Source of the DNA: an uncultured Clostridia bacterium
GTDB lineage: Bacteria > Bacillota > Clostridia > Christensenellales > Borkfalkiaceae
Length of the DNA stretch: 64,000 nucleotides
Assembly: GCA_947572415.1 (NCBI GenBank)
Contig: CANPBT010000003.1
Location: forward strand, 1-64,000
Direction: 5' to 3'
Part shown: in pieces, positions 36,102 to 52,558 of the stretch
How the letters are laid out: each line of letters starts with the position of its first letter
Position numbering within the stretch: position 1 is the first letter of the stretch
The notes under the pieces: model-generated
The model's database searches: none
Seen by the model: only the letters and a program-made list of their open reading frames with translations
What the model was told of the DNA's origin: nothing
Program-made: the position numbers and the translations under genes

Positions 36102-36178
<77 letters not shown>

Positions 36179-45967: not shown

Positions 45968-46077
45968 AGGCTTCCCCTTCGGAGAAGCTGTCGCAACCGA
46001 AAGGTTGTGACTGATGAGGTTTATGCCTCATCGCCTACGCATTCACGGCACAGTCACCTTCCCCGACAGGGAAGGCT
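45968..46077. repeat. Dispersed hairpin repeat between subunits I and K
   Basis: A full ~110-bp copy: AGGCTTCCCCTTCGGAGAAGC, the hairpin CAACCGAAAGGTTG, ACTGATGAGGT, and CCTTCCCCGACAGGGAAGG at the far end. Confidence 0.87.
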
Positions 46078-48038
46078 CAATTATTGATATACACGTATTT
46101 GTGCCTAGAGCCGAGCGGAGCGAACAATTCACCCTCGCCCTCGTAAAACCTGCCGTAAAACTCGACGTACTGCAACCTCGCGTCGTGGATATACGCGCCC
46201 AAAAGCCCTATCGCAAGGTTGAACACGTGGCCTATGACCATAATCAGCACGCCTAAGATTATGAAAGCGACGTTGCCGCTCGACATAAGCGCGACCGAGT
46301 TGGAAGTGACGATATCCGCTATGACCGCGCCCGCGAGCATCAGCCCGTAAAGCCTTGCGTAGCTTAAAATATCCGAAGCGTAGTTGATTACGCCGTAAGC
46401 CGAGCCGAAGCCTTTTGTGAATTTGCCGAGCAGCTTTTCCTTTCTGCCCGCCGTGAATATCGCAACAACGAGGCTTACCCCCGCGATTATGCCGCCGACA
46501 AGCTTTAGAGCGGGCGCCCCGAATTCGTCGATAAAGCCGACAAGCGCAAGCTCCACCCCCGCCGAGAACATTGCCCAGACGAGCCCGTCCAGAACGCCGT
46601 CCCAGACCTTTCCTCTGCGGAAATTCTGCACGGCGAGACACACGTACCCCGCGAACAGCTGAACCACGCCTATAATCATACTTATAATCAGCAGCGCGGG
46701 CACTTTAATCCCCGCAAGCGACCAGCTCATTGCCGCGCCCTGCATATCCGGCATAACCTTAAACGGCAGCAGCGCGAACCCGAAAAACGAATTGAAAAGG
46801 AAGCCCCAGATTACGGTGAATATACCGCCTACGGCGAACACGCCGCCTAATCTGCCGAGCATAGTGTCGCGGCGGCTTGTTTTAAGCTTTATAAACAGCC
46901 CGCCGATTATCATCATCAGCCCGTAGCCGATATCAGCCATAATGAAGCCCAGAAACACACTGTAAAAGAAAGCCATTACAGTGTTGGGGTCCATTTCGCG
47001 GTAGTTTGGCGGCGAATACATATTCGTCACCGCCTCGAAATTTTTCACAACCTTATTGTTTTTTAGCAACGTCGGCGGAATTTCCCCCTCCGACGGCTCG
47101 GAAAATCCGTAATACAGCGCGCGCCCCGTACCGATAAGCGCGGCGGAAACCCTTTCCTGCGCCTCCGCGGGGACGTACGCCTCGATTAAAACGGTTTTCT
47201 GCGTGGCGCGCATCTTCTCGGAAAGCTCGGCTTTTTCAAGCTCGAACGCGGTATAATCGCAGTATATTTCCAGCGGGCGAAGCTCCGCGCGCAGTCCGAT
47301 GAGCGAAGCCGAAATTTCTTCGAGCTCGCTTTCGCGCCGTGCTCGCTCTTCCGTGAGCGAGCGGTATATCTCTTCGCCGCTTTTATCCCCCGTGAACGGG
47401 CAATCGGTAAATCCCGCCGCAGCCAGCGCCCCGTCGGTCTCCTCGGCAACGCTCTTGTGCGCCGCGACCATTATGACCGAATTTTCCGCGTCGCCGCCGA
47501 TTACCGAATATACTGCGAGTTTATTTTCGGCGAGCGCGCTTTGAAGCGTTTTTATACCGCCGGCGGGCGACGAGCCCAGCCTGAATTTTACGTGCGCGGT
47601 GCCGTCCGCTCCGAGCGGCTGCATTACGCCCGAATATATTTTGGCGATTTCGAGCTGCTTGTCGAGCTTGGAAATTGCCGACTTTATTTTTTTACGCCTG
47701 TCCTCGCACCCGAAAATTTTGTCGGCGCATTCTTCGGCGCCGTCGCGAAGCTCTTTCGCCGACATAAATTCGGCAAAGCTTATTTCGTCGCTCGTTTTAA
47801 AGGACTTGTCCTCTTTTATCGCCTTTGCGCACGCGTCTGCAAGCTTTCCGCGCGCCTCTTCCAGCCTCGAAAGATATGCGCGCAGCTCTTCGCAGTCGAA
47901 ATCGAGCGGAGAGGTGTCCGCCTCTTCGCCGTGCGATTTTATCTCGACCGCGCCAGTACCCGTAAGCGCGTTCAAAACGGCGTCCTTATCGTACGCCATC
48001 GCAACGAGATTGAGTTTGCTCATTTCAGCGATTGCCAC
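46077..48038 (-). CDS. ntpI: V-type ATP synthase subunit I
   Basis: A 653-residue a-type subunit. The first ~320 residues are cytoplasmic and form the collar arm (MAIAEMSKLNLVAMAYDKDAVLNALTGTGAVEI...). The rest has about seven or eight membrane helices forming the ion half-channels, including FFYSVFLGFIMADIGYGLMMIIGG, FGFALLPFKVMPDM and ASDILSYARLYGLMLAGAVIA with the key Arg. The C-terminal GAYIHDARLQYVEFYGRFYEGEGELFAPL is highly conserved. It overlaps the G/H subunit gene by 14 bp. Confidence 0.96.
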   Translation of the reverse strand: MAIAEMSKLNLVAMAYDKDAVLNALTGTGAVEIKSHGEEADTSPLDFDCEELRAYLSRLEEARGKLADACAKAIKEDKSFKTSDEISFAEFMSAKELRDGAEECADKIFGCEDRRKKIKSAISKLDKQLEIAKIYSGVMQPLGADGTAHVKFRLGSSPAGGIKTLQSALAENKLAVYSVIGGDAENSVIMVAAHKSVAEETDGALAAAGFTDCPFTGDKSGEEIYRSLTEERARRESELEEISASLIGLRAELRPLEIYCDYTAFELEKAELSEKMRATQKTVLIEAYVPAEAQERVSAALIGTGRALYYGFSEPSEGEIPPTLLKNNKVVKNFEAVTNMYSPPNYREMDPNTVMAFFYSVFLGFIMADIGYGLMMIIGGLFIKLKTSRRDTMLGRLGGVFAVGGIFTVIWGFLFNSFFGFALLPFKVMPDMQGAAMSWSLAGIKVPALLIISMIIGVVQLFAGYVCLAVQNFRRGKVWDGVLDGLVWAMFSAGVELALVGFIDEFGAPALKLVGGIIAGVSLVVAIFTAGRKEKLLGKFTKGFGSAYGVINYASDILSYARLYGLMLAGAVIADIVTSNSVALMSSGNVAFIILGVLIMVIGHVFNLAIGLLGAYIHDARLQYVEFYGRFYEGEGELFAPLGSRHKYVYINN

Positions 48039-48342
48039 GCTTCACCCTCCGGATTACGTCGTTTACAGCTCTGTCGGTATCTTTAAGCTTATCGGCGCAA
48101 TATTTCGCCGCTTCCGCGCGTTTTACGGTTATCTGCTGTTCATACGCCTTTTGCGCGTCCTCTTCCGCAAGCTTCAAAGTCTTTTCGCGGTACGCCTTGC
48201 ACTCCGCCTCGCAGAGCTTTAATATCTCCGCCTGACGCTCTTCCGCGGCAGCGACAATCGCCGCCGCCCTTTCGAGTGCGTTCGCTTTGATTTCGGCAGC
48301 TTTCGCTTCCGCTTCGGTTATTGACTTAATTATCTGCTGCAT
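48025..48342 (-). CDS. V-type ATP synthase peripheral-stalk subunit (G/H-like)
   Basis: A 105-residue, highly helical protein (MQQIIKSITEAEAKAAEIKANALERAAAIVAAAEERQ...) of the NtpF/AhaH kind that pairs with subunit E in the peripheral stalk. The start at 48342 is preceded by AGAGGATTTCAT; an upstream in-frame ATG would add an unlikely leader. It is the first gene of the V-ATPase operon. Confidence 0.87.
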   Translation of the reverse strand: MQQIIKSITEAEAKAAEIKANALERAAAIVAAAEERQAEILKLCEAECKAYREKTLKLAEEDAQKAYEQQITVKRAEAAKYCADKLKDTDRAVNDVIRRVKRGNR

Positions 48343-48476
48343 ATGAAATCCTCTGTTTATTATACCCTTAGAGTTTAACACAAATACAATTTAATTGCAA
48401 TAAAAAATTTGCGGTTTTATGTTACAAAACCACAATTTTCATATTATATTCACACCGGCAACCCTTTTGTCATGCG

Positions 48477-49808
48477 TCAGCAATAGCCGTACCTTTTACG
48501 GTACGCTATCACAAACGCCGCGGAAATCAGCATAGAGCCTATTTCGGCGAACACGCTTGCCGCCCATACTCCGTCCAGCCCCCAGAAAAGCGGAAAAACC
48601 ATTATGGTCGCGATTTGAAAAACAACCGTGCGCATAAACGATACTATAGCGGATATAAGCCCGTTGTTCAAAGCCGTAAACATCGCCGAGCCGAAAACCC
48701 CGTATCCCGACACAAGAAACGCGACCGAGAATATTCTGAATCCGCGTACCGTCATTGCCAGCAGCTCCTCGTCGTATGAAACGAAGATTTTCGCCAGCGG
48801 AACGGCGAGGGCTTCCGAAAGCGCCGCCATTATCACGCCGCAAGCGGTAATAATAAGCAGACTTTTCTTAAACAGATTTTGAAGCTCCGTCTTGTTTTCC
48901 GCGCCGAAGTTAAAGCCGATAAGCGGCGCACAGCCTATCGAGTAGCCCATAAACACCGAGAAGAAAATCATAACTATATACGCGATTGCCGCATAAGCCG
49001 CCACGCCCGCGTCGCCCGCAATTTTGCCGAGCTGATAGTTGTATAAAAAGGTAACCACCGCCGCCGAAGCGTTGGTAAGAAATTCGGAGGAGCCGTTCGT
49101 AAACGCCTTTAACAGCGGTTTTATATAAAATCCGGTTTTACCTAACCGCAGAAGGCTGTTGTTTCTGGAAAAGAAATATATTAGGGGGAATACCCCTGCG
49201 ACGACCTGGCTTGTAAGCGTTGCGCCCGCCGCGCCGGCAAGCCCCCACTTGAAGCCCGCCACGAACACAGCGTCAAGCACCATGTTGATAACCCCCGCGA
49301 CAACCGTAACCGCCAGCCCGAGGCGGGGTTTTTCAGCGGTTATGAAAAAGCTTTGCGACATTGCCTGCAACAGAAAAAACGGGTGCCCCGCAAGCAGAAA
49401 CCTGCCGTATAAAACGCAGTATTCGTAGGTAAGCCCCTCCGCCCCGACGAACTTCGCCACCCATGGCACCGCAAACTGCCCCGCAACCGCAACGGTAACG
49501 CCGAGAATTATCGTCACGTATACGATAAGCGAAAAATACTCGTTTGCGGTCTGCTTGCGCCCCTCGCCGAATGTTTTGGATACCAGCGCGCTTCCGCCCG
49601 AACCCAGCATCATACCGATTGAACCGAGTATGAAAATCATAGGGAAAATTCTGTTTATCGCCGCAAGCGCCTCTTTGCCCACGTAATTAGATACGAAAAG
49701 CCCGTCCACCGCCGTGTATACGTTGGTGAAAACCATCATAATTATCGACGGAAGAACGAAAACGATAAGTTTTTTAAATGTAAAATGCTCGGAAAGTTGT
49801 ATACGCAT
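48477..49808 (-). CDS. MATE family multidrug efflux transporter
   Basis: A 443-residue protein with twelve predicted membrane helices. Family features include FTNVYTAVDGLFVSNYVGKEALAAINRIFPMI in helix 1-2, GMMLGSGGSALVSKTFGEGRKQTANEYFS, and the second-half counterpart MGYSIGCAPLIGFNFGAENKTELQNLFKKS. Such transporters export cationic compounds in exchange for Na+ or H+; a Na+ gradient would suit the Na+-type V-ATPase next door. The start at 49808 has GAGGACGCT upstream and matches the usual N-terminus; an earlier in-frame start adds a non-family leader. Confidence 0.92.
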   Translation of the reverse strand: MRIQLSEHFTFKKLIVFVLPSIIMMVFTNVYTAVDGLFVSNYVGKEALAAINRIFPMIFILGSIGMMLGSGGSALVSKTFGEGRKQTANEYFSLIVYVTIILGVTVAVAGQFAVPWVAKFVGAEGLTYEYCVLYGRFLLAGHPFFLLQAMSQSFFITAEKPRLGLAVTVVAGVINMVLDAVFVAGFKWGLAGAAGATLTSQVVAGVFPLIYFFSRNNSLLRLGKTGFYIKPLLKAFTNGSSEFLTNASAAVVTFLYNYQLGKIAGDAGVAAYAAIAYIVMIFFSVFMGYSIGCAPLIGFNFGAENKTELQNLFKKSLLIITACGVIMAALSEALAVPLAKIFVSYDEELLAMTVRGFRIFSVAFLVSGYGVFGSAMFTALNNGLISAIVSFMRTVVFQIATIMVFPLFWGLDGVWAASVFAEIGSMLISAAFVIAYRKRYGYC

Positions 49809-50039
49809 AGCGTCCTCAAAAACACAAAACGGCGCGGCGGCTAAAAAACCGAGGCGCAAAACGATTGATTATATATATATATTAGAGTTAGATTATTATA
49901 TCCGTTATAACGCCGGATGTCAAACAATTTTCGACAGCCTGTAAAAATAAATATCTTTGCGCGAATTTCCGCAAATTCTAACATTTTTTGATTATTTATT
50001 CATTTTTTTGAATATTTATAAAAATGCATTTAAATTTGT

Positions 50040-50068
50040 TTGCTTTTTCGGAAAGCGGGTGATATTAT
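50040..50068 (+). promoter_or_regulatory. Promoter of the amino-acid ABC operon
   Basis: TTGCTT (50040-50045), 17-bp spacer, TATTAT (50063-50068). It sits in a T-rich 290-bp gap that otherwise shows no gene. AAAGAGGT follows as the ribosome binding site of the binding-protein gene. Confidence 0.6.
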
Positions 50069-50098
50069 AGCGTTACAAATAATCAAAGAGGTAAAAAA

Positions 50099-50974
50099 AT
50101 GAAAAAAGTATTCGGAGCGCTTGCGGCTGCGGCTATGACCGTTTTAATGGCGGTATCATTTGCGGCGTGCGGCGGAAATCAGGTAAAAATCGTCGAAATC
50201 GACCTTTCGACGGAGCAGTACGGCATAGCCGTCAAAAAAGGCGATACGAAAATGAAAGAAGACGTGAACGGCGTGCTCGAAAAGCTGAAAGGCGACGGCG
50301 TTACGGTCGACGGAAAGACGGTGACCTTCAACTCCCTCTACACCGCGGAAATGGAAGCGCAGGAAAAGGGCGAGCTTATAAGCATCGGCGAGGTTAAAAC
50401 CAAAAGCTCCGACCGCACGAAAGAGCTTGTCGTTGCGACAAACGCGGAGTTCGCGCCGTTCGAATATATGGTCGGCGAGTCGTTCGGCGGCATAGATATG
50501 CAGGTTGCGAAAATTATCGCAGCCGAACTCGGCAAAGAACTCGTGGTTTTACATATGAGCTTCGAGGTCGTGCTCGAAGCCGTCGGCAACACCGCCGATA
50601 TCGGTATGGCGGGGCTTACCATAAACGAAGACCGTATGAAAACCGTCGATTTCTCGGCGCCCTACTACGACACGACGCAGCGCATAGCTGTGCTTGCGGA
50701 CGACACGGATTTCGACGGCTGTACCGACGAAGCGAGCGTCGTCAAGGTATTGAACGAGCTTAAAGGCGCAAAGGCGGGCGCGGCAAAAGCGCAGACGGGC
50801 TACTTCTACCTCGTCGGCAACGACAGCTTCGAGTTCGCGGGGTTTGAAAACATCGAAACAAATCAGTACGCGAGCATTGCTCTCGCCGTGCAGGATTTGG
50901 CGAACGGCAAGCTCAAGCTCGTCTGCGGCGATAAAGACACTTTGTCCGCGGCAGTCAAAGCGATGAATAAATAA
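50099..50974 (+). CDS. Polar amino-acid ABC transporter substrate-binding lipoprotein, apparently circularly permuted
   Basis: A 291-residue lipoprotein (lipobox FAAC, Cys ~24). The core is a family 3 binding protein: ELVVATNAEFAPFEY (~109), DIGMAGLTINEDRMKTVDFSAPYYDTTQRIAV (~167-198), and ALAVQDLANGKLKLVCGDKDT (~261). The order is unusual. The strand-helix unit VKIVEIDLSTEQYGIAVKKGDTKMKEDVNGVLEKLKGDG, normally the last ~40 residues, comes first here (~29-67), and the protein ends right where that unit would usually begin. It should deliver an amino acid to the permease encoded next. AAAGAGGT precedes the ATG. Confidence 0.9.
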   Translation: MKKVFGALAAAAMTVLMAVSFAACGGNQVKIVEIDLSTEQYGIAVKKGDTKMKEDVNGVLEKLKGDGVTVDGKTVTFNSLYTAEMEAQEKGELISIGEVKTKSSDRTKELVVATNAEFAPFEYMVGESFGGIDMQVAKIIAAELGKELVVLHMSFEVVLEAVGNTADIGMAGLTINEDRMKTVDFSAPYYDTTQRIAVLADDTDFDGCTDEASVVKVLNELKGAKAGAAKAQTGYFYLVGNDSFEFAGFENIETNQYASIALAVQDLANGKLKLVCGDKDTLSAAVKAMNK

Positions 50975-50982
50975 GGTAGTTT

Positions 50983-51675
50983 ATGGCGGAAAGGTTTCAA
51001 CTGTTTTTCAAGCATTTTGCGGAATACGGCGGTTATAAAAATATACTGCTCGGGCTGCGCAACACGCTTGTAATAGCCGTATGCGGGCTTATAATAGGTA
51101 TAGTAATAGGAACATTGATAGCCTGCGTACAGCTTGCCGGCAAAAGGAATAAAGCGGCGAAAGTGTTTTCGGTCGCGGGCGAGGTGTATACCGCGATTTT
51201 CCGCGGCACGCCCATTATAGTGCAGCTGCTGATATTCCACTATATAATTTTTTCGGGTACGGGCATTAACAGCTTACTCGAAGCGGTAATTGTTTTCGGG
51301 CTGAACAGCGGCGCGTACGTTGCGGAAATTATGCGCGGCGGAATAGCTTCGGTTGACGCGGGCCAGCTCGAAGCGGGCAGAACGCTCGGGCTGTCCTACA
51401 CCACTTCGATGATAAAAATAGTTTTCCCACAGGCGATTAAAAACGTTATCCCCACCCTCGGCAACGAGCTTATCGCGCTCACGAAGGACACCTCCGTCGC
51501 GGGCTACGTCGCCACTATGGATTTAAACGCCGCTTTCACCGCCATTGCAGGCGCGACGTACGATTTTATGGTGCCGTACATTATGCTCGCGCTCGTCTAC
51601 CTCGTGCTCGTCGCGGCGATGACGGTGCTTATAAAGCTTACGGAAAGGAGGCTTAAAAAGAGTGACAAAAAATAA
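50983..51675 (+). CDS. Amino-acid ABC transporter permease
   Basis: A 230-residue permease of the HisM/GlnP family with about five membrane segments. It shows [24 protein letters not shown], the [18 protein letters not shown] region and the [37 protein letters not shown] coupling (EAA) loop. It starts 8 bp after the binding-protein gene and overlaps the ATPase gene by 14 bp. Only one permease gene is present, so it likely acts as a homodimer. Confidence 0.96.
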
Positions 51676-52558
51676 AAAGCATAAATTTATTAAAACTCAG
51701 GTCACCCCCGTCGAGCCTTACGACCCTTCCGCCATGCTCGAAGCGCAAAATCTTATAAAAAAATTCGGCGACCTGAACGTGCTCAACGGCATAAACGAAA
51801 AGATTTATGCAGGTGAAAAAATCGCGATAATCGGCCCGTCGGGGAGCGGAAAAAGCACGTTTCTGCGCTGCCTCAACGTGCTAGAAGACCCGACCGACGG
51901 CTACGTGTTTTTCAACGGCAACAACTTGTGCGATCTGGCGGTGGACATAAATATCCAGCGTAGAAAAATGGGTATGGTTTATCAGCAATTCAATCTTTTC
52001 AATAATATGACGGTGCTGAAAAACATTACCCTTGCGCCCGTGCATATAGGGCTTTCCGACCTGAAAAAAATTAAATTTAAAAACGCGGGCGCACGATTTT
52101 TGAACCTTTTCAGGAAGAATAAAAAACCGCTTATACCCGTAGAAAAGACGGCAAAGCAAATCAAAGCCGAAGCCGAGGAAAACGCAATGCGGCTGTTAAA
52201 ACGCATAGGGCTCGAGGACAAGGCGAACGTTTATCCCTCCACCCTGTCGGGCGGGCAGCGGCAAAGGATTGCGATTGTGCGCGCGCTGGCGATGAACCCC
52301 GAAGTTATGCTGTTTGACGAGCCCACCTCCGCGCTCGACCCCGAAATGGTCGGAGAAGTGCTGAACCTTATCAAGGAGCTTGCCGACGACGGTATGACTA
52401 TGGTTATCGTCACCCACGAAATGAGCTTTGCGCGCGAAGTTGCAACAAGAGTGCTGTTTATGGACGAGGGGAAGATACTCGAAGAGGGCGCGCCCGAAAA
52501 TATCTTCAATTCACCGCAAAATCCCCGCCTGAAAGAATTTTTATCGAAAGTTTTATAA
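51662..52558 (+). CDS. Amino-acid ABC transporter ATP-binding protein with inserted segment
   Basis: A 298-residue ATPase, longer than the usual ~240. Motifs are [13 protein letters not shown] (Walker A), [16 protein letters not shown] (Q loop), [15 protein letters not shown] (signature), [15 protein letters not shown] (Walker B) and VTHEMSFA (H loop). The extra length comes from a ~25-residue N-terminal extension and a ~35-residue basic insert between the Q loop and the signature ([36 protein letters not shown]). The start is GTG with AAGGAGG upstream, inside the permease 3' end. Confidence 0.95.

Follow-up and report, generated by a model that had tools for sequence, protein, structure and literature searches.

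The window (the whole stretch of DNA analysed here, 64,000 nucleotides of contig CANPBT010000003.1 from an uncultured member of the Clostridia) carries on its forward strand an ORF at 50099-50974 that encodes 291 amino acids without an internal stop. We annotate it as a circularly permuted family 3 amino-acid binding lipoprotein, in which a C-terminal unit is followed by lobe 1 and then by lobe 2. A putative ribosome-binding site, AGAGG (50087-50091, same strand), is inferred 7 bases 5' of the ATG. The ORF opens with a signal peptide and lipobox (50099-50170), recognized in the sequence and in alignment A2; the lipobox cysteine, here Cys24 and the predicted lipid site, is invariant in all 69 permuted proteins of that alignment. 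After a gap of 9 bases follows the permease gene of the same operon (50983-51675; Pfam BPD_transp_1, E 6.3e-21), which is overlapped by the ATPase gene (51662-52558; ABC_tran, E 1.5e-34), both on the forward strand. Divergent from the operon and upstream of it, the reverse strand encodes a 460-aa multi-pass membrane protein (48477-49859) that presumably resembles a MATE-type exporter. No riboswitch that could serve as a clue to the substrate was found near the gene, the sole Rfam match in the window being a tRNA at 36105-36178. The genome, which is 97.5% complete, contains no other PF00497 protein. Comparison with a 91%-identical orthologue (L031) gave a dN of 0.048 and a dS of 0.547 (dN/dS about 0.09), and this low dN relative to dS indicates a working gene under purifying selection.

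The Pfam SBP_bac_3 profile matches the protein well above its gathering cut-off (75.3 bits against 26.4), with the match confined to residues 110-228 and profile positions 1-98 of 132; the end of the profile is absent from its usual place. A phmmer search of all PDB sequences located the rest. For 6svf, query residues 109-218 align to chain residues 11-121 and query residues 30-67 to chain residues 180-217; for 4prs, 110-218 align to 11-120 and 30-65 to 179-214. Because the two pieces match in swapped order, the chain must run C-terminal unit, lobe 1, lobe 2. Segment profiles agree, giving one match each in the order S3-S1-S2; the standard order of lobe 1, lobe 2 and back to lobe 1 is absent. 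The first-pass annotation had placed the unit that normally closes family 3 proteins directly behind the lipobox, and DLSTEQYGIAVKKG is indeed found at residues 35-48, just past Cys24; the protein terminates, as it had also described, at NGKLKLVCGDKDTLSAAVKAMNK. A second complete C-terminal unit, which would have refuted that reading, is lacking, since only a single unit is present.

It had further been claimed that moving residues 28-67 to the end restores a standard protein. When the N-terminal part is transferred in this way, the local alignment score with Escherichia coli GlnH rises from 180 to 262, and the best score among 200 shuffles of the moved part is 206. Two standard relatives give a more modest gain, the score rising from 230 to 278 in one case (best shuffle 262) and from 214 to 277 in the other (best shuffle 248). 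The unit was drawn too short, however. It spans about residues 29-89 (KIVEIDLSTEQYGIAVKKG... plus the last helix; 50183-50365), as delimited by phmmer, the S3 profile, which matches residues 29-67, and the structural model, in which helices occupy residues 50-64 and 77-89. A linker between the old C- and N-termini, residues 90-107 or so, follows at 50366-50419; its boundaries, drawn from the model and alignment A1, are approximate. Lobe 1, the former N-terminal part, comprises residues 108-198 (50420-50692; Pfam SBP_bac_3 and S1 matches), the first crossover and an insert comprise residues 199-222 (FDGCTDEASVVKVL; 50693-50764; alignment A1 and model), and lobe 2 with the new C-terminus comprises residues 223-291 (50765-50971; S2 match at 224-289). 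All of these features lie on the forward strand. At the level of sequence the rotated order is confirmed.

Structure prediction, which had been proposed as a check, gave a confident AlphaFold2 model from 69 permuted sequences (mean pLDDT 95.7, pTM 0.87). Along the chain it consists of strands 29-32 and 39-46, helices 50-64 and 77-89, the linker, a first lobe 1 strand at 109-114, the rest of lobe 1, and lobe 2. Foldseek and VIA-align matched family 3 structures, mostly to residues 103-291 and with a few rows starting at 48-51; the PDB chains aligned to residues 103-291 through their first 175 or so residues, and the best VIA match was 5t0w_A (Z 16.9, rmsd 2.4, 175 residues). Both aligners are sequential, so that a partial match of this kind is what a permutant should give; the moved unit was not superposed, and agreement in fold extends to residues 103-291 only. 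A two-lobed family 3 fold is thus predicted. If the second crossover is placed by the hinge numbering of GlnH, the new termini of the model lie at the second lobe crossover, which would leave each lobe continuous in sequence.

Ligand residues were assigned by alignment to GlnH. GlnH positions 10, 13, 50, 68, 70, 75, 115, 118 and 157 correspond to N115, F118, F155, G172, T174, R179, K230, T233 and D278 of the window protein; we take D10, F13, F50, T70, R75, T118 and D157 of GlnH to be its amino-acid ligand residues. By this alignment lobe 1 contributes N115, F118, F155, T174 and R179, and lobe 2 contributes K230, T233 and D278. Six of these positions (F118, F155, G172, R179, T233 and D278) do not vary at all among the aligned permuted proteins (69 of 69), and T174 is conserved in at least 90% of them. 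Two positions have changed, GlnH D10 to N and H156 to G, and the substrate therefore cannot be named.

Homologues with the same segment order, another point on which the proposal could be checked, proved to be numerous. At E 1e-10, 32 of 93 genomes of the genus gave a match, and in 13 of them, the window's own genome included, the order is permuted (13/93 overall). Seventeen other genus loci (L014-L030) have the standard order, except for two that show lobe 1 and then the C-terminal unit without a scored lobe 2; two further matching genomes yielded no locus. Alignment A1, built from permuted proteins, matched 145 of 301 genomes of the family and 156 of 396 of the order at 1e-30, and 56 of 391 of the class and 4 of 398 of the phylum at 1e-45, counts that include standard-order proteins. 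No strong relatives were found outside the class at E 1e-45, the four phylum genomes being that of the window and three others from within the class.

ORFs in 198 loci were classified with three segment profiles built from A1. These loci are a biased sample, having mostly been picked for a high match to the permuted profile, and some are duplicate genes. The window's order, which we term type A, was found in 110 ORFs (109, plus 1 with a split lobe 1 match). In 36 ORFs of type B the break is at the first crossover and the order is lobe 2, C-terminal unit, lobe 1; the standard order was assigned to 51 (49, and 2 more in which lobe 2 was not scored), and a single ORF had two lobe 1 matches. A non-cyclic arrangement of the three segments did not occur in any classified ORF of the 198 loci. 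Reduction at 80% identity left 74 type A, 28 type B and 44 standard proteins. One of these 44, L120, reads as having a third permutation point (type C), since the first strand of lobe 1 is missing from its start and closes the chain instead. The ORF concerned (L120:745-1794, reverse strand) looks standard and has its own lipobox, with the first lobe 1 strand at its end (QLVVLTNVPFSPFEYLA). It remains a single case, since no further type C protein turned up in 20 genomes of its family, where the one match was L120 itself. A type A ORF, L077:1501-2235, has an in-frame stop within its lobe 2 part and may be a pseudogene or reflect a sequencing error.

Gene context is shared by all three common orders. 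Among ORFs with more than 500 bases downstream, a same-strand permease match follows 102 of 106 type A, 34 of 34 type B and 42 of 42 standard ORFs. In some loci binding domain and permease occupy one ORF, both for type A (L054:1360-3000, L082:802-2373, L127, L128) and for type B (L165, L169, L170); the fusion point is lobe 2 in type A and the lobe 1 side of the first crossover in type B. Homologues of the window ORF at 46077-48038, which we take to be V-type ATPase subunit I, lie upstream on the other strand in permuted-order genus loci (L004, L005, L006, L008, L009, L011, L012, L031) and in standard-order ones alike (L016, L017, L021, L023, L027, L030). In these loci, permuted and standard operons alike seem to sit at one and the same location, corresponding to the 46077-50974 region of the window.

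Type B was modelled from L163 (genome G777), which we take to be the same gene as L036 of the named isolate Ructibacterium gallinarum DSM 107454 on the basis of equal protein length and segment positions. The model (pLDDT 90.2, pTM 0.80) has OpuAC as its best VIA match (Z 11.8, rmsd 4.8 A over 209 residues), weaker than the match of type A, as expected of sequential alignment to a rotated chain. No PDB chain matched L132 (type A) or L163 across all units in permuted order, apart from pieces across the two-domain GlnPQ chain 6h30. This check covered the best 60 of 71 and of 100 matches, respectively, and does not exclude cases that share the fold only.

Three readings would dispense with a genuine permutation of the window protein or with its intramolecular form. 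The partial Pfam match, by itself, is also what would be left by a standard protein that had lost its C-terminal unit, gained an unrelated or duplicated N-terminal extension, and was decaying or altered in function. Yet the N-terminal unit is homologous to the very unit that is missing, is conserved in the 69 aligned permuted proteins (E39 and Y41 are invariant), and folds with high confidence in the model, and the gene is under purifying selection; we regard truncation as extremely unlikely. It is also conceivable that the protein is domain-swapped or oligomeric, its N-terminal unit filling in lobe 1 of an adjacent molecule. The C-terminal helix of the Thermotoga maritima arginine-binding protein, ArgBP, is reported to be domain-swapped between molecules and belongs to this same unit, and the linker could permit either arrangement. 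The single-chain model is confident, however, and the linker is held closely to one length, 48 of 74 type A proteins having 26-28 residues between profile ends, as one would expect if it spanned a set intramolecular distance; we consider a swap very unlikely. That the window and most of its relatives come from draft genomes leaves room in principle for an artefact of metagenome assembly or binning. Such an artefact is already refuted for the type, to the extent that we see hardly any chance of it: type A is found in three genomes listed as one contig (G887, G915, G1034), a type B protein is present in the R. gallinarum isolate, and a lipobox is present in 74 of 74 type A proteins.

Natural circular permutation, as the first-pass annotation had called it, is supported by the segment order, the predicted structure and the many homologues of the same order, three of them in one-contig genomes. 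We hold with high confidence that the gene product is the substrate-binding lipoprotein of an ABC importer for polar amino acids and that it represents a family 3 clamshell whose chain has been circularly permuted in nature. The segment order, the conservation of ligand residues, the operon and purifying selection are demonstrated; the fold is predicted, and ligand binding and transport are inferred, without structure, binding or transport data. In the arrangement we propose, the old N- and C-termini, both on lobe 1, would have been bridged by the linker and the chain opened afresh at the second lobe crossover, so that each lobe would be one continuous stretch and the chain would cross between lobes once instead of twice. 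The protein would most likely act as an ordinary clamshell, binding an amino acid between its lobes, closing, and docking on the adjacently encoded permease. Its lipid anchor would lie close to the hinge strand rather than at the start of lobe 1, and its free C-terminus would be on lobe 2. That the tether is shifted relative to the lobes, as had been pointed out earlier, follows from the segment order; for any functional consequence there are no data.

The history of the segment order was analysed with trees built from the three concatenated segments, one of 144 rows and a careful tree of 102 rows. The order label requires 18 changes on both, compared with a possible minimum of 3 and with averages of 60.0 (144 rows) and 47.9 (102 rows) for shuffled labels. 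The well-supported branches of the careful tree alone force at least 5 changes for type A, at least 8 for standard and at least 5 for type B. Neither type A, type B nor standard proteins formed one clade in any of 200 bootstrap trees (0%), and the AU test on 55 picked rows rejects a single clade for type A (p 2.7e-48), for type B (p 1e-10) and for all permuted proteins (p 5.64e-06). The orders are interleaved in the careful tree: L032 (type A) adjoins L091 (type B; 82/87), and L035 (type B) groups with the standard L119 (99/96). In the 144-row tree a long branch among the standard proteins (support 100, length 1.03) holds two type A ORFs, L196:702-1547 and L197:633-1622, in which that order may have arisen separately. 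Close pairs of different order are alike in each of the three segments: L180 (standard) and L156 (type A) are 87, 71 and 77% identical, L114 (standard) and L086 (type A) 62, 66 and 64%, and L032 (type A) and L091 (type B) 75, 56 and 70%. Since the likeness extends to all three segments, these pairs are unlike chimeras that share one lobe. The window protein (L001) and L025, a standard protein of its genus, are only 39, 25 and 42% identical; L014-L030 are related to the window protein only distantly, and its immediate standard-order ancestor is therefore unidentified.

With only 198 columns behind the careful tree, weak support at many of its deep forks and a bootstrap that had not settled, the number of order changes is uncertain; nor can the clade tests separate repeated origin from reversal. 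It is possible, though we doubt it, that the wider family underwent a single ancient permutation, with its scattered standard members representing returns and no later joining event. The joining linker looks alike in types A and B and the lone type C, and some standard proteins end in tails that resemble linker remnants. The returns would themselves be further changes of order, however, and types A and B interleave on the tree, as in the two groupings given above. The reading we prefer, from the sequences and their trees, is that the order has apparently changed several times in the wider family, including apparent returns to standard, with the exact number uncertain.

The tails in question are those of the standard-order L090, L117 and L114, which resemble the linkers of permuted proteins (0 of 200 shuffles as good). 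The tail of L114 found its best match, among 102 linkers, in that of its tree sister L086. That of L113 also matched L086 best, but weakly, with 11 of 200 shuffles equal; the tails of six other standard proteins were no different from shuffles. L090 and L117 are nested among 14 type A proteins that group together (100/100), a position that speaks for a return to standard order. Alternatively, the likeness could reflect a pre-existing C-terminal tail that became the linker. We infer that the rotated forms arose when the gene was duplicated in tandem, in frame, and then trimmed. Tandem copies fused in frame would yield a chain that contains a whole protein in every cyclic window of segments; if both ends were then cut back and the signal peptide kept or regained, a rotated form would be left, and the same step starting from a rotated gene could give back the standard order. 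Neither the classified ORFs of the 198 loci nor the long frames of L212 and L213 included a tandem-duplicated intermediate. A shorter tether as the reason for permutation is unsupported, the median distance from the lipobox cysteine to the first segment being 7.5 residues in type A, 8 in standard and 5 in type B proteins.

On balance we lean towards a combined view, in which Clostridia family 3 proteins are topologically fluid, the chain having repeatedly been closed into a virtual circle and opened again at the first crossover, the second crossover, once inside lobe 1, and the original ends, with linker remnants persisting as tails, and in which rotation may offer a way to shift the tether or a fusion point to another lobe. 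The latter part draws on the rotated forms that are also fused to a permease through their new C-termini. The family offers a natural series, with joint-like remnants, for asking which chain orders a clamshell tolerates and how permutation starts and reverses, and it bears on the question of whether an ABC importer is affected by where its membrane tether sits. As the profile match is partial (residues 110-228 of 291 in Pfam), permuted proteins can pass for truncated genes in annotation.

Escherichia coli GlnH and T. maritima ArgBP, both PF00497 proteins, share with the window protein its segments, predicted two-lobed fold, ligand residues and an operon with permease and ATPase; the window protein differs from them in its rotated cyclic order, single crossover, hinge-side tether and a linker that joins the old termini. 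The GlnPQ chain 6h30 has the permuted order along the stretch from the end of its first binding domain into its second, and phmmer aligned both permuted types across this junction (L132, 66-294 to 187-396; L163, 43-269 to 102-324). Unlike the permuted proteins, GlnPQ has two complete standard domains in tandem.

In the literature searched, open-licence PMC papers, we found no natural permutant of family 3, and one may have been described elsewhere; permutation terms were looked for and not found in the OpuA paper (PMC2861598), and circular permutation appears in PMC7683729 only in a reference. Natural permutation of other binding proteins is known. TpMglB-2 (Tp0684) of Treponema pallidum is a naturally permuted type I glucose protein, assigned to a proposed type Ic or cluster Bc, and such a permutation is also reported in Gram-positive gut bacteria (PMC4990184). 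It resembles the window protein as a natural permutation of a membrane-tethered ABC binding protein. It is a type I sugar-binding protein of another cluster, however (PMC4990184), whereas the window family is type II, amino-acid binding, and in it two break points are common and the order has changed repeatedly; the window protein does not show the type I sugar-binding fold, and its sequence and fold matches, among those listed, are type II amino-acid proteins. Glycine betaine-binding proteins, molybdate-binding proteins and CysB are related by permutation in the CPSARST study (PMC2395249). Those cases likewise connect binding-protein folds, and OpuAC is the best VIA match of the type B model; the pairs given there are remote, below 24% identity (PMC2395249), whereas permuted and standard proteins here reach 87% in one segment (L180 and L156). 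The published binding-protein permutations that we found concern remote proteins or one clade, whereas here close relatives include both forms, in operons of the same make-up. That binding proteins can be permuted in nature was already known, and the family 3 case was not found described; the surprising part is that rotation in this family seems to have been repeated and apparently reversible.
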